Shown here: positions 2,338 through 48,996 of the stretch, one piece after another
Layout: every line of letters begins with the position of its first letter
Position numbering within the stretch: the first letter of the stretch is position 1
Assembly (NCBI GenBank): GCA_948144175.1
Contig: CANXME010001989.1
Span: 558,001 to 622,000, forward strand
From: Closterium sp. NIES-65
Taxonomy: Eukaryota; Streptophyta; Zygnematophyceae; Desmidiales; Closteriaceae
Length of the DNA stretch: 64,000 bases
Direction: 5' to 3'
The notes under the pieces: generated by a model
What the model saw: only the letters and a program-made list of their open reading frames with translations
What the model was told of the DNA's origin: nothing
Database searches by the model: none
Position numbers and translations under genes: made by a program

Positions 2338-2451
2338 CATCCCGTGATTCTAGAGCAGATTCTCGTCACAGGTGTGTTTTGAGTCGACTCAAAACACACC
2401 TTTTGAGTCGACTCAAAGCATCCCGTGATTCTAGAGCAGATTCTCGTCACG
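2338..2451. repeat. 33-base direct repeat flanking two palindromes
   Basis: Bases 2338-2370 and 2419-2451 are the same 33-base sequence (starting GCATCCCGTGATTC). Between them lie a 30-base perfect palindrome (2371-2400, centre GTCGAC) and a second palindrome with one mismatch (2401-2418). Confidence 0.9.
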
Positions 2452-46200: not shown

Positions 46201-48996
46201 CCACCTCGCCTCACCTGACCTCACCGCTCCCCCAATGTACATGTGACACCAGAGCGACACAATTGACCACTCTATCTGAGTGGCGACATCAGCGCCATTT
46301 TGTGTTGCGACCCCTCTTCGCCACTCAGATAGAGTTTTGAGATGTCTCAAATGCCCTCTTCCCCCGTGCATGTGACTCAATCAGCGCGCTCTTTGCCACG
46401 CAGATGGAGCCGTACAACCCAATTCTCCCAATACCCTCGCTCTCACTTCCACTTCTCCCTGTATCTGACACGTGTGCCTGCAGGGCGACACCTGTGACTC
46501 CATCAACGCGCTCTTCGACACGCAGATAGAGCCGCTCAACCCCGCGCTCAGCTGCTCCGATGGGCCACGGCACGGGCAGGTGAGATCAGCGGGTTGAATT
46601 GAAGGGAGTTAAGAGGCGCCTCAAAAGGCGACTGTTGAGGCGCCTCTCAAGGCGCTCAGCTGCTCCGATGGGCCGAGGCACGGGCAGGTGAGATCACTTT
46701 TGAGTAGGTGAGATCAGCGAATTGAACGAAGTTCAGAGGCGCCTCAAAAGGCGACTCTTGAGGCGACTCTCAAGGCGCTCAGCTGCTCGGATGGGCCACT
46801 GCATGGGTAGGTGAGGTCAGCGAGGAACGATAAACGCCAAATGATTGAAAATAACGCAAACGCCTGGCCGATTAATTTTGGGGGCAGCTGGTGCAAAGAA
46901 GAACAAAAACGCGAATGTGATTCTGCGCAGCTCCTCGAACTCGGATTGAGAATATTGCACAAGTCATGCTGTTAGCTGTTTGTTTCCGAAATAACCTCCG
47001 TGAGGCAAACAACCCCAATATACCCCAATATACCCCAATGTACCCCAGTATACTCCAATATACCCCAATGCACCCCAGTATACCCCAATATACCCCAATG
47101 TACCCCAGTACACCCCAATATACCCCAATGTACCCCAGTATACCCCAATATGCCCCACTGTACCCCAGTATACCCCGATGTGGATGGTAATGACCCTCCG
47201 ATGTGGAAGCACGATGAGAGTGGAATCCTCATCTATATTTCAACCCGTCATCAATCCTCTCTCCCCTGCCTCGATTCTCTCCCCCTGTATTGTTGCTCCT
47301 CCCCCTTTATTGCTGCCCTTCCCCCTGCCTCGCTTCTCTCCCCTTTTATTGTTGCTCCTCCCCCTTTATTGCTGATCCTCCCCCATTATTGCTGCCCATC
47401 CCCTTACCTGCCGCTCCTTCCCCTTAACTGCTGCTTTCCCCCCTTCCCTCCCCTCCCCGCAGCTTCTATGTGTGGCGTTTGACCAACAGTGGTACGACGC
47501 CGGAAAGATAAGCACAAAGTGCACGCACTTCGCTCACATCTCGCCAGCACCACTCTCCAGCAGCCTGCAGCAGACAGCCCCATTCACCGTAGAGGACGCA
47601 CTCATAAGCGAGCTTGAGAGCCCACAGACCTGCCAGGGGCTGTGGCAGGCCTTCAGCCTCGCCTCTCCCGCACGCTTCTTCCAGCTCAACCCCGGCCTTC
47701 CGTGCGACTCGCTGCTGCCCGACAGCCCGCTTCAGGGCAACACTGTGACTCGGGTGGGTGGGAAAGCTGTTACCAAGTGTATGGGACCAGGTGTATGGGA
47801 CCAGGTGTATGGGACCAGGTGTATGGGACCAGGTGTATGGGACCAGGTGTATGGGACCAGGTGCATGGGACCAGGTGTATGGGGTCAGGTGTATGGGACC
47901 AGGTGTATGGGACCAGGTGTATGGGACCAGGTGTATGGGACCAGGTGTATGGGGCCAGGTGTATGGGACCAGGTGTATGGGACCAGGTGTATGGGACCAG
48001 GTGTATGGGGCCAGGTGTATGGGACCAGGTGTATGGGGCCAGGTGTATGGAACCAGGTGCATGGGGCCAGGTGTATGGGACCAGGTGTATGGGTCCAGGT
48101 GTATGGGACCAGGTGTATGGGACCAGGTGCATGGGACCAGGTGTATGGGACCAGGTGTATGCGACCAGGTGTATGGGACCAGGTGTATGGGACCAGGTGC
48201 ATGGGACCAGGTGTATGGGACCAGGTGTATGGGACCAGATGTATGGGACCAGGTGCATGGGACCAGGTGTATGGGACCAGGTGCATGGGACCAGGTGTAT
48301 GGGACCAGGTGTGTCCGAGGCTTCCTGGAAGAATCTTTGCTGCAGTGCAGTGTGAATGTTGAGGGTGTGAGTGAGTGAGAGGGAAGTGTGAGGCGGTGTG
48401 TGTGCAGCGACGCGCGGGTGGTTGTACGAGTGTAGGGGATTGAAGAATGTAAGGGATTTACGAGTGCAAGGGATTTACGAGCTTCACAGAAACCGGATAG
48501 GATTTAAGGGTGTAAGGGATATACAAGTGCACGGGCTGTACAGGGCCAGGGTAATGATGTGAGTGTGGGGGATGTGCATAATTTACTAGCAATGATTCAA
48601 GAGGCCAGGGTAAGTGGTAGAGCTAGGGAGTTGAGGGTGTGAGTGGTGAGTAACAAGGAAGGTGAGTAGGCTGTTGCTGGCAGCAATGTGAGATTTTGTC
48701 GGGAGTGAGCTTTTTAACTTCGACACTTTTTAGGTTGTCTCATGCAATTCTTGTTTTCACGGAAACACAATTGGCAGGTCTGTGTGGCTGGTGTTGACGC
48801 TCGTCCTGTCTCGGGCCTGTCCTGTTCAACCAAGAGAACATACAGTGTGAGGCGCGGCGACACGTGCGGCCTGCTGATCGCTAAGAGATACAGCCGCAGC
48901 ATTGACATGTTTAGGAGCCTTAATCACGGTTATGATTGTGCAGTGAGTAGGTTGTGGATTGGCATGTTGCTCTGTTTGCCTGCGGTTATCTTATAG
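34203..48996 (+). CDS. Secreted mosaic protein: two L-type lectins, two EGF-like, three LysM
   Basis: Twelve exons join in phase to 1602 residues: 34203-34368, 34776-36332, 38381-38760, 39164-39695, 40163/40164-41216, 42514-42681, 43264-43410, 44188-44300, 45766-45861, 46484-46579, 47463-47744, 48778-48996. Exon 1 is a signal peptide/anchor (TLLVIIFVAVVGVADG); earlier ATGs exist at 34089 and 34176. Exon 2 starts NLLSNPSFD (galactose-binding-like, tentative) then Ser/Ala-rich. Lectin 1: FSFSTSFTFRI, GLAFVMLP, LAVEFDTS, HVGVNLHG. Lectin 2: FTFTYGFSM, GLAFVIST, SVAVEWDT, IHIGVNS, with a Ser/Gly insertion. EGF-like modules: CNHSPVLPCGMGTC and NPCAPGVCIDGLDGSYSCLC. LysM: FGLTQTQFFSENK; MYTVNHGDTCDSINALF...LNPALSC; CQGLWQAF...LNPGLPC; YSVRRGDTCGLLIAKRYS. 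No kinase domain. Likely binds wall or microbial glycans. Exon 11 could instead end at 47753. Confidence 0.8.
36417..37010. repeat. 30-base tandem repeat, 8 copies, inside an ACTCGACTCG-rich block
   Basis: Units of 30 bases (GGCGGCGAAATCCCATCTCC and 10 more) run from about 36594 to 36836, with variants. The block is bordered on both sides by repeats of GAGTCGAG/ACTCGACT. Because 30 is a multiple of 3, frames stay open on both strands. It lies in intron 2 of the lectin/LysM gene. Confidence 0.85.
37015..37065 (+). pseudogene. Copy of the lectin exon 3 start
   Basis: Resembles 38390-38440 (CTCAAGTCCTTCTCCC, CTCTCCAGTTCCCACCCGCT), 1.3 kb before the functional exon. Confidence 0.6.
37172..37258 (-). 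repeat. TRIM LTR, left
   Basis: 87 bases; three mismatches to the right LTR. Confidence 0.9.
37482..37568 (-). repeat. TRIM LTR, right
   Basis: 87 bases, TGTAAC...GTTACA. Confidence 0.9.
39819..39871. repeat. Poly-T followed by (TG)n
   Basis: About 34 T then 9 TG units, in the intron between the two lectin domains. Confidence 0.97.
40074..40110 (+). pseudogene. Copy of the second-lectin exon start
   Basis: CCCAGCAGCGAAGGATCCGC repeats the acceptor and start of the functional exon at 40164 (CCCAGCAGCGGAGGATCCGC), then diverges. Confidence 0.8.
41744..42117. repeat. 29-base tandem repeat, about 12-13 copies
   Basis: Unit CTCGTTTCCCCACACACTCA plus 9 more bases, nearly invariant. Confidence 0.97.
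42216..42341. repeat. (CTC)n repeat grown inside a copy of the EGF-like exon
   Basis: About 41 CTC/TCC units directly follow GACAGACTCTGACTTC, the start of a copy of the first EGF-like exon. A second copy with no expansion is at 42390-42460, followed by a TCGA-core palindrome (42461-42477) and then the functional exon at 42514. Confidence 0.92.
43604..43880. repeat. 72-base tandem repeat, 4 copies, with half palindromes
   Basis: GCTGCAGACATGCACAGCAC recurs at 43611, 43683, 43755 and 43827. Units are joined by TTTTTGACGTCTCAAAAG, a near copy of the ACGT-core palindrome. Confidence 0.95.
44340..44425 (+). pseudogene. Copy of the first LysM exon
   Basis: CATTCGGATTGACACAGACC...AGCAAAAACAAG plus a GTGAGG donor, diverged from the functional exon 44188-44300. 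Another end fragment (AACAAGGTGAGC) is at 44920. Confidence 0.8.
44827..44925. repeat. Array of GGGTCGACTCAAAAGTCAC half-palindromes
   Basis: Four tandem copies of about 22 bases (TTGGGTCGACTCAAAAGTCAC with variants). A related, more decayed trio is at 44465-44540. Confidence 0.85.
45026..45208 (+). pseudogene. LysM-exon paralogue with 39-base internal repeats
   Basis: DIGQLGATFGLIQANGLSEKD resembles the first LysM exon but its phase does not fit the neighbouring exons. The NGLSEKDLLGYRA unit is repeated three times in tandem before a TGA. I treat it as a decayed exon copy inside an intron. Confidence 0.6.
45500..45765. repeat. 13-base tandem repeat ending at a splice acceptor, about 20 copies
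   Basis: Unit CTCTGATACCATG. The last copy becomes ATACCAG, the acceptor of exon 9. Confidence 0.93.
46240..46440 (+). repeat. Decayed copies of the LysM exon 10
   Basis: Fragments resembling GACACC...CGCGCTCTTCG...CAGATAGAGCCG occur at about 46255-46335 and 46375-46425 before the functional exon 46484. Copies of the exon end (GCTCAGCTGCTCCGATGGGC) recur at 46655 and 46778 with GCGC-core half palindromes. Confidence 0.8.
47018..47178. repeat. 11-base tandem repeat TACCCCAATAT, about 14 copies
   Basis: TACCCCA followed by ATA, ATG or GTA variants. Confidence 0.95.
47777..48312. repeat. 14-base tandem repeat GTGTATGGGACCAG, about 38 copies
   Basis: Runs downstream of exon 11. Each unit contains CCAG|GTGTATGG, resembling a splice donor. 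Long shadow ORFs on both strands arise from it. Confidence 0.97.

Follow-up and report, generated by a model that had tools for sequence, protein, structure and literature searches.

The stretch of DNA considered here (the window) comprises 64,000 nucleotides of Closterium sp. NIES-65 (assembly GCA_948144175.1, contig CANXME010001989.1, positions 558,001 to 622,000 of the forward strand). It encodes protein-kinase, glycosyltransferase, legume-lectin and tyrosyl-tRNA-synthetase domains together with Ty1/copia polyproteins, and is therefore nuclear eukaryotic DNA. Scattered through it are copies of a short palindrome, TTTTGAGN4CTCAAAA (TTTTGAGNNNNCTCAAAA), with constant arms around a four-base core. 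Perfect copies occur at 12 places in the window and at none in 100 dinucleotide shuffles, and 46 sites match with at most two mismatches where 0.24 would be expected, so that the dispersed family proposed in an earlier sequence-only reading is real. Across the 874,075,685 bases and 2,400 contigs of the genome, counted with tandem arrays included, the perfect pattern is found 30,327 times and the same pattern reversed only 4 times. The sites adjoin Ty1/copia polyproteins and exon-like domains on large contigs, a setting that does not match an organelle location, and the palindrome family is a real, abundant and unusual set of nuclear insertions.

The cores of the 12 perfect window sites are TCGA in eight cases, ACGT in two, AATT in one and ATGC in one (at 25254); the proposal that every core is self-complementary holds for the first three classes and fails for the last. 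Genome-wide, TCGA (13,080), GCGC (5,851), ACGT (5,047) and AATT (2,601) make up 26,579 of the 30,327 perfect sites. Cores of the form NCGN total 24,964, including 986 besides the three already named, which leaves 2,762 cores outside both NCGN and AATT. What looks like constant arms with interchangeable cores is better described as one palindrome divided into a few subfamilies: the centre of every perfect palindrome of even length is self-complementary, and the ACGT class carries an arm sequence of its own. The symmetry that was reported to extend outwards at individual sites does so over 36 bases at 15214–15249 and 46 bases at 16809–16854, and over 32 bases (2370–2401), rather than 30, at the site near 2371; these are the longest perfect palindromes in the window. 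Among the GCGC sites described as mostly carrying one mismatch, none is perfect in the window: the copy at 28516 has one mismatch, those at 43494, 46609 and 46732 have two, and that at 22962 has three. The AATT sites are present, with start positions corrected to 16823 and 23192, as are a TCGA site (42460–42477) and an ACGT site (43086–43103), each with one mismatch. In the latter, as in the perfect ACGT palindrome at 16878–16895, the long arm is found on the right side only.

As read from the assembly, the element is a palindrome of 18 to ~52 bp set between two direct copies of typically 15–100 bp of local sequence. At 2336–2450, identical 34-bp copies (2336–2369 and 2417–2450) flank a 47-bp insert that contains two overlapping TCGA palindromes (2370–2401 and 2402–2417), and at 6010–6080 copies of 15 bp flank a 41-bp insert with a GCGC palindrome (one mismatch) at 6042. 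The perfect ACGT palindrome at 14459–14476, whose longer arms are imperfect (CGTGATA...TATCACG), has an identical 25-bp copy on each side, the right one 48 bp off. Two neighbouring sites follow, with 44-bp copies (one mismatch) around TTTTGAGTCGACTCAAAAGTCAACT at 15068–15180 and 29-bp copies around the 36-base TCGA palindrome at 15187–15277, and the 46-base AATT palindrome lies between identical 26-bp copies (16778–16878). Further along, the TCGA palindromes at 19476 (one mismatch) and 19524 (perfect) sit inside a duplication with a 48-bp period (19449–19564), 30-bp copies (23525–23620) enclose 36 bp that include the perfect TCGA palindrome at 23557, and another perfect TCGA palindrome (23998–24015) is flanked by 35-bp copies with one mismatch. 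Copies of 67 bp with one mismatch enclose a 52-bp insert with palindromes at 24787 (perfect) and 24811 (one mismatch) in the interval 24715–24900. The perfect-arm site with the non-self-complementary ATGC core is bordered by diverged 48-bp copies (25191–25321), and 45-bp copies at 46544–46696 surround 63 bp of inserted sequence in which the GCGC palindromes, at 46609 and 46633, are degenerate.

The association between palindromes and direct duplications was quantified in 264 kb of sampled sequence with 98 perfect copies, 37 of them from a single array in stretch L035. Arrays were collapsed before class and duplication statistics were computed, reducing 181 to 110 sites with at most two mismatches and leaving 49 perfect ones; stretches L016–L032 were picked for listed palindromes, and rates drawn from them describe the palindromes and not the genome. 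A direct duplication (score of at least 11, within 120 bp) accompanies 44 of the 49 perfect sites (90%), compared with 28% of 1,500 positions drawn at random and 51% of 545 drawn nearby. When the copies must lie no more than 30 bp from either edge, the share is 59% for the 49 sites, 11% for random and 16% for nearby positions. That the controls score well above zero reflects the general abundance of tandem duplications in this genome. Among 109 sites with at most two mismatches, the corresponding frequencies are 78% and 44%. The clear duplications (52 rows, two of which, at 24787 and 24811, share one duplication) measure 15–101 bp with a median of 39, and those at 23 solitary sites 16–77 bp with a median of 34. 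Flank copies were also recognized by eye in 12 of 15 further small stretches (C10, C13, C14, C21), the other three (L037, L038 and L051) being ambiguous. Finally, 42 of 118 tandem duplications with an 18–60 bp spacer have an arm word in that spacer, a count made without a control and including some chance words.

No strong target motif emerges from the 44 break contexts of solitary sites, in which the largest deviation reaches z = 2.7; an excess of T after the break (0.39 vs 0.22, all rows), considered as a possible target motif, came partly from arrays and was set aside. The suggestion that the palindromes are sites of a recombinase or telomere-resolvase-like enzyme is not supported by the long target duplications and the empty sites described below. 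Such enzymes are not known to duplicate 15–100 bp of unrelated target, and this, together with the lack of a strong motif, leaves the idea without support. Core exchange without target duplication was not what the sites displayed, in an analysis that made no search for a recombinase.

The reading of the sites as insertions with target duplication, well supported by the sequences compared, draws evidence from putative empty sites. Reconstructed empty-site sequences were used in local BLAST searches against the sampled sequence, followed by alignment, and revealed five loci with paralogs that lack the palindrome and one of the two flanking copies, the target being present once in the paralog and twice in the filled site. 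These filled loci are L021:1299 and L027:9164, each with two empty paralogs, L025:4183, L026:3955 and L022:971, whose empty paralog lies in L018, ~45 kb away on contig C6. The empty-site stretches are diverged paralogs and not alleles, given identities of ~78–90% over the matched parts, and where a locus has several paralogs the empty state is in the majority. A sixth locus is provided by a tyrosyl-tRNA-synthetase-like exon copy on the plus strand of the window (26696–26745, identified by domain match), which carries a 26-bp insertion, ATCGGT[TTTTGAGTCGACTCAAAA]GC, that five neighbouring exon copies (26906, 27436, 27599, 27744 and 27886) do not have. The insertion part of the earlier suggestion of hairpin-forming insertions is hence borne out both by the empty paralogs and by the target duplications at the flanks. 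These observations also bear on the possibility that the palindromes are not mobile and that pre-existing palindromes provoke local tandem duplication, the flank copies being a consequence. Tandem duplications do abound in this genome, including at places without a palindrome nearby; against this stand the position of the palindrome between the copies, its absence from one-copy paralogs at six independent loci and the presence of an identical palindrome family at unrelated sites on many contigs, and an immobile origin is therefore very unlikely. As for the exon itself, several diverged tandem copies of it (tRNA-synt_1b domain) with intron-like spacers occupy window positions 26203–28260, and similar short exon-like tandem duplications occur at 4495–4995 and 24465–24729.

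Ligation or amplification can yield perfect inverted repeats with tidy cores, and a sequencing, library or assembly artefact could in that way produce palindromes like these. However, the mean divergence between the two flank copies is 4.9%, and just 11 of the 49 pairs that align without gaps are identical. One insertion is also present in a near-identical contig, C1759 (a 3.9-kb query matches it at 98–99% in two stretches and at 79% in the part between), where the palindrome carries two point mutations. Furthermore, the assembly of this Closterium psl. complex strain was built from PacBio reads, according to the available part of its description (PMC10407611). An artefactual origin can accordingly be given almost no credence.

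When copies are aligned by core class, conservation is greatest at the centre and drops outward. The TCGA arm approximates TCGAGGTGAC-TTTTGAG-TC, the AATT arm is similar in its outer part, the GCGC arm is weak outside TTTTGAG, and the ACGT arm reads ACGTG-N5-AG-N5-TTTTGAG-AC. Genome-wide, ACGTG-N12 precedes the perfect palindrome in 532 + 522 of 10,094 possible arms. In 77 ACGT arm words, copied by hand from 100 rows of the ACGT-arm matches listed with arrays thinned, the A of the internal AG is invariant (77 of 77) and the G nearly so (76 of 77), and the N5 parts fall into subfamilies that recur, with AAAGA-AG-GAGTG as the most common and 48 different words in total. Two other views of the arms were considered and rejected: the N5-AG-N5 segments looked random in the first copies and might have been random tags, until recurring subfamilies were found, and an arm hairpin as a shared feature is represented by a stem-loop with a 4-bp stem (GACT-TTTG-AGTC) in the TCGA class, the pairing of which is not kept in the ACGT, GCGC and AATT classes.

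The outer ends of the palindrome follow a different pattern from its centre. Left and right insert extensions are equal in only 1 of 19 sites (r = 0.23), and among the 13,080 TCGA palindromes GTGAC is present in both arms of 1,013, in one arm of 2,588 and in neither arm of 9,479, so that 72% (2,588 of 3,601) of the copies keeping GTGAC keep it on one side only. Yet the two-sided class is 2.5 times as large as the ~407 expected of independent arms, and the arms thus come from a shared source and are often shortened separately. Counted on both strands, 284 arm words include only 26 without a mirrored partner, where 7.2 are expected by chance, which indicates that the centre is nearly always completed and that one-arm insertions, another candidate that was examined, are rare at most. 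The 18-bp centre, with TTTTGAG and the core, is nearly always whole, and the outer arms stop at variable points that often differ between the two sides. In this respect the anatomy is inside-out relative to a transposon, with a kept centre and variable outer arms. A miniature inverted-repeat transposable element (MITE), mobilized by an unfamiliar transposase that cuts its target with a very wide and variable stagger, would account for a dispersed, high-copy, palindromic family with subfamilies and target duplications. Elements bounded by terminal inverted repeats (TIRs), however, are constant in their ends and in the length of their duplication, whereas here equal extensions are the exception, one-sided arms predominate among GTGAC-keeping TCGA copies and the duplications span the ranges given above, down to 2–3 bp at the exon, which makes a MITE-like origin distinctly unlikely.

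The two arms of a single palindrome also resemble each other in the letters that distinguish subfamilies. Agreement was scored as matches over the 12 positions outside the constant part, between the arms of one palindrome and between shuffled pairs. In the TCGA class (37 sites) it amounts to 198, compared with a shuffle mean of 160 and maximum of 183, and in the ACGT class (14 sites) to 73, compared with a mean of 54. Among the matches listed, the six ACGT palindromes with both arms full show 0, 2, 0, 0, 2 and 0 differences out of 12, arbitrary arms differing by 5.6 on average. The arms of one copy hence clearly mirror subfamily letters in the TCGA class and probably do so in the ACGT class. 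Mirrored arms, together with the kept centre, the variable and unequal ends and the duplications, would all be explained if ready-made short palindromic duplexes were captured and end-joined into staggered breaks, with fill-in of the tails giving the duplication. The 18-bp centre would then perhaps be protected by a bound protein dimer while the duplex ends are nibbled, and the constant words of the ACGT arm (ACGTG, AG and TTTTGAG) do lie about one helical turn apart, a spacing that protein binding could demand; junction microhomology, not clearly above chance, would likewise fit such capture. This explanation presupposes, however, that free palindromic duplexes arise by the tens of thousands and in distinct subfamilies; no such source is known, and none came to light here, where none was looked for, and we regard the explanation as rather unlikely.

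The mechanism to which we assign the greatest weight, tentatively and with a probability of about 0.4, is one in which the two ends of a staggered break are each extended on a template and then joined through self-complementary tips. In this model, a staggered break or pair of nicks would leave two single-stranded 3′ tails carrying the future duplication. Each tail would be extended on copies of one short template, always to the template end, so that both new tails would terminate in one and the same self-complementary tetramer (TCGA, GCGC, ACGT or AATT), and the two tips could anneal to each other before the gap is filled and ligated. The polymerase might be a reverse transcriptase acting on a small RNA, by twin priming or by telomerase-like addition to broken ends. 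Because one arm would be copied twice, perfect symmetry would be restored at every insertion. The direct duplications would vary in length because the break overlap varies, the centre would be complete because the template end is always reached, the outer ends would be variable and unequal because the start point differs at each end, and subfamily letters would be mirrored because a single template is copied twice; the small set of cores could also be accounted for. The earlier suggestion of a fold-back repair product survives in part: simple fold-back predicts inverted flank copies, and the flanks here are direct, whereas a repair-like origin at staggered breaks is what the leading mechanism proposes. 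Templated extension appears to carry the most weight, duplex capture to explain nearly as much and a conventional transposase the least, since a transposase needs defined ends.

Several observations weigh against this interpretation, both in the insertional origin of the sites and in the proposed mechanism. Tandem duplications are common anyway, at 51% of the nearby control places, and the exon insertion has almost no duplication (2–3 bp). Deletion between direct copies could in principle also produce an empty paralog. The arm agreement of the ACGT class stays within the shuffle maximum (73 vs 74), that of the GCGC class shows no excess (34 vs a shuffle mean of 38 in 13 sites), and the AATT class, with an agreement of 34 against a mean of 24 and a maximum of 38, comprises only 5 sites. 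The two ends are not independent, as the 2.5-fold excess of two-sided GTGAC indicates. Junction microhomology, which priming would favour, averages 0.79 bases over 38 ends, a value inflated by arrays. Lastly, neither a template RNA nor free DNA nor an enzyme came to light, in an analysis that did not search for any of them directly.

Among known systems, the nearest in kind are the palindromic elements of mitochondria. Yeast mitochondrial GC clusters (GC42) and other mitochondrial hairpin elements are likewise very short palindromes with many copies, subfamilies and putative target duplication, in the available parts of the respective accounts (PMC4478555; PMC2800124). GC42 is, however, organellar and described there with a 2-base target duplication (AG) (PMC4478555), whereas the Closterium palindromes are nuclear, with duplications of 15–101 bp and unfixed ends. 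Both DNA and RNA routes are discussed for GC42 mobility in the portion of that study at hand, which leaves the matter unsettled (PMC4478555), and the mechanisms of other mitochondrial hairpin elements are said to differ (PMC2800124, in part). The short palindromic repeats of Volvox carteri organelles are of similar size, belong to a green alga and have some nuclear copies (PMC2670323, in part). Unlike the present family, those nuclear copies are described as inert organelle transfers, the hairpin loops measure 3–5 nt, the sequence differs and target duplications are not mentioned in the available part of the source (PMC2670323). MITEs and TIR transposons share palindromy, dispersal and target duplications with the present family, in which the centre rather than the ends is conserved and neither ends nor duplication length are fixed.

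The nearest systems in mechanism are telomerase-RNA-derived break insertions, self-primed inverted Penelope junctions and tandem duplications at 3′-overhang breaks. The last of these are an established repair product, judging from the part of the literature seen (PMC8355091), and interstitial telomeric or telomerase-RNA-derived insertions place templated sequence at double-strand breaks, sometimes with target duplication (PMC2246262, in part). Unlike telomeric insertions, the sequence added here is not known as telomeric and is added as a mirrored pair. Twin priming of long interspersed elements (LINEs) gives inverted products with palindromic junctions and duplications. Self-primed inverted insertions of Penelope elements do so too, in the available part of their description (PMC3846280). 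Both insert long element sequence with short duplications, whereas only an 18–52 bp palindrome is inserted here. Variable-length target duplications, as in LINEs and short interspersed elements, are present in the Closterium family, and in place of an oriented element with a 3′ tail or conserved 3′ end there is a tailless palindrome with variable outer ends. By way of analogy only, with no relation claimed, CRISPR spacer integration also places short DNA between two copies of a duplicated target and builds repeat-spacer-repeat arrays; here the insert is constant, the repeat varies and the setting is a eukaryotic nucleus. No description of these TTTTGAG elements was found in searches of open-licence PMC papers, and the word "palindrom" is absent from the main text of the Closterium genome-size paper.

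Other repeats and elements share the window and the sampled sequence with the family. Ty1/copia polyproteins with RVT_2, rve and gag_pre-integrs domains occupy window positions 7130–10405, 53151–57683 and 61637–62896, and no TTTTGAG palindrome with at most two mismatches lies inside these three stretches. A 20-base perfect palindrome unrelated to the TTTTGAG family, TCGGATGGCATGCCATCCGA, occurs twice in the window (33719–33738 and 33898–33917), ~180 bp apart, and a second palindromic family is represented at L027:5470–5552 by an 82-bp repeat with a different palindrome (GTTCGGTTCGCCTCGAAC...), with more than 20 copies at 93–99% identity among the matches listed. A 20-bp tandem array, GACTTTTGAGGCACTTTTGC, uses the TTTTGAGGC word without a mirrored arm (L023:7344–7500), and a (GGTGAG)n array of ~102 units (window 19633–20245) is one of very many minisatellites there. 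Stretch L052 (contig C1262, 43.5 kb) contains rDNA that looks Fusarium-ITS-like by eye, with five 5.8S copies ~7.5 kb apart, and is probably a contaminant contig. A second 5.8S locus, L053, which is one of many copies with identical scores, has a plant-like appearance when judged by eye.

Within the family itself, a tandem array at 29542–30071 repeats a 46-bp unit with a TCGA palindrome core 11.5 times; the array sites of the earlier reading are corrected to 11 units with at most two mismatches between 29577 and 30054, nine of which have a perfect palindrome of 14–16 bases. Arrays with 46-bp units occur both in the window and in L035. It is possible, if somewhat doubtful, that the palindromes belong to a class of nuclear mobile element that has not been described before and has no fixed ends. 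A one-arm template would in that case tag both ends of a staggered break with sequence ending in a self-complementary tetramer, the tagged ends would recognize one another and be joined, and every such event would restore the palindrome, duplicate tens of host bases and be able to seed a satellite array. If so, a dispersed nuclear element would exist with a conserved middle and arbitrary ends, the reverse of a TIR transposon, and a single algal genome would have been shaped by tens of thousands of its copies. The element would then connect break repair with templated end addition and with the origin of minisatellites, because the duplicated flank and palindrome become the unit of local arrays. 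The mechanism of the mitochondrial counterparts is still open in the available parts of their descriptions (PMC4478555; PMC2800124), and the mechanism of palindromic elements becomes testable in a nuclear family that offers subfamilies, empty sites and copies by the tens of thousands.

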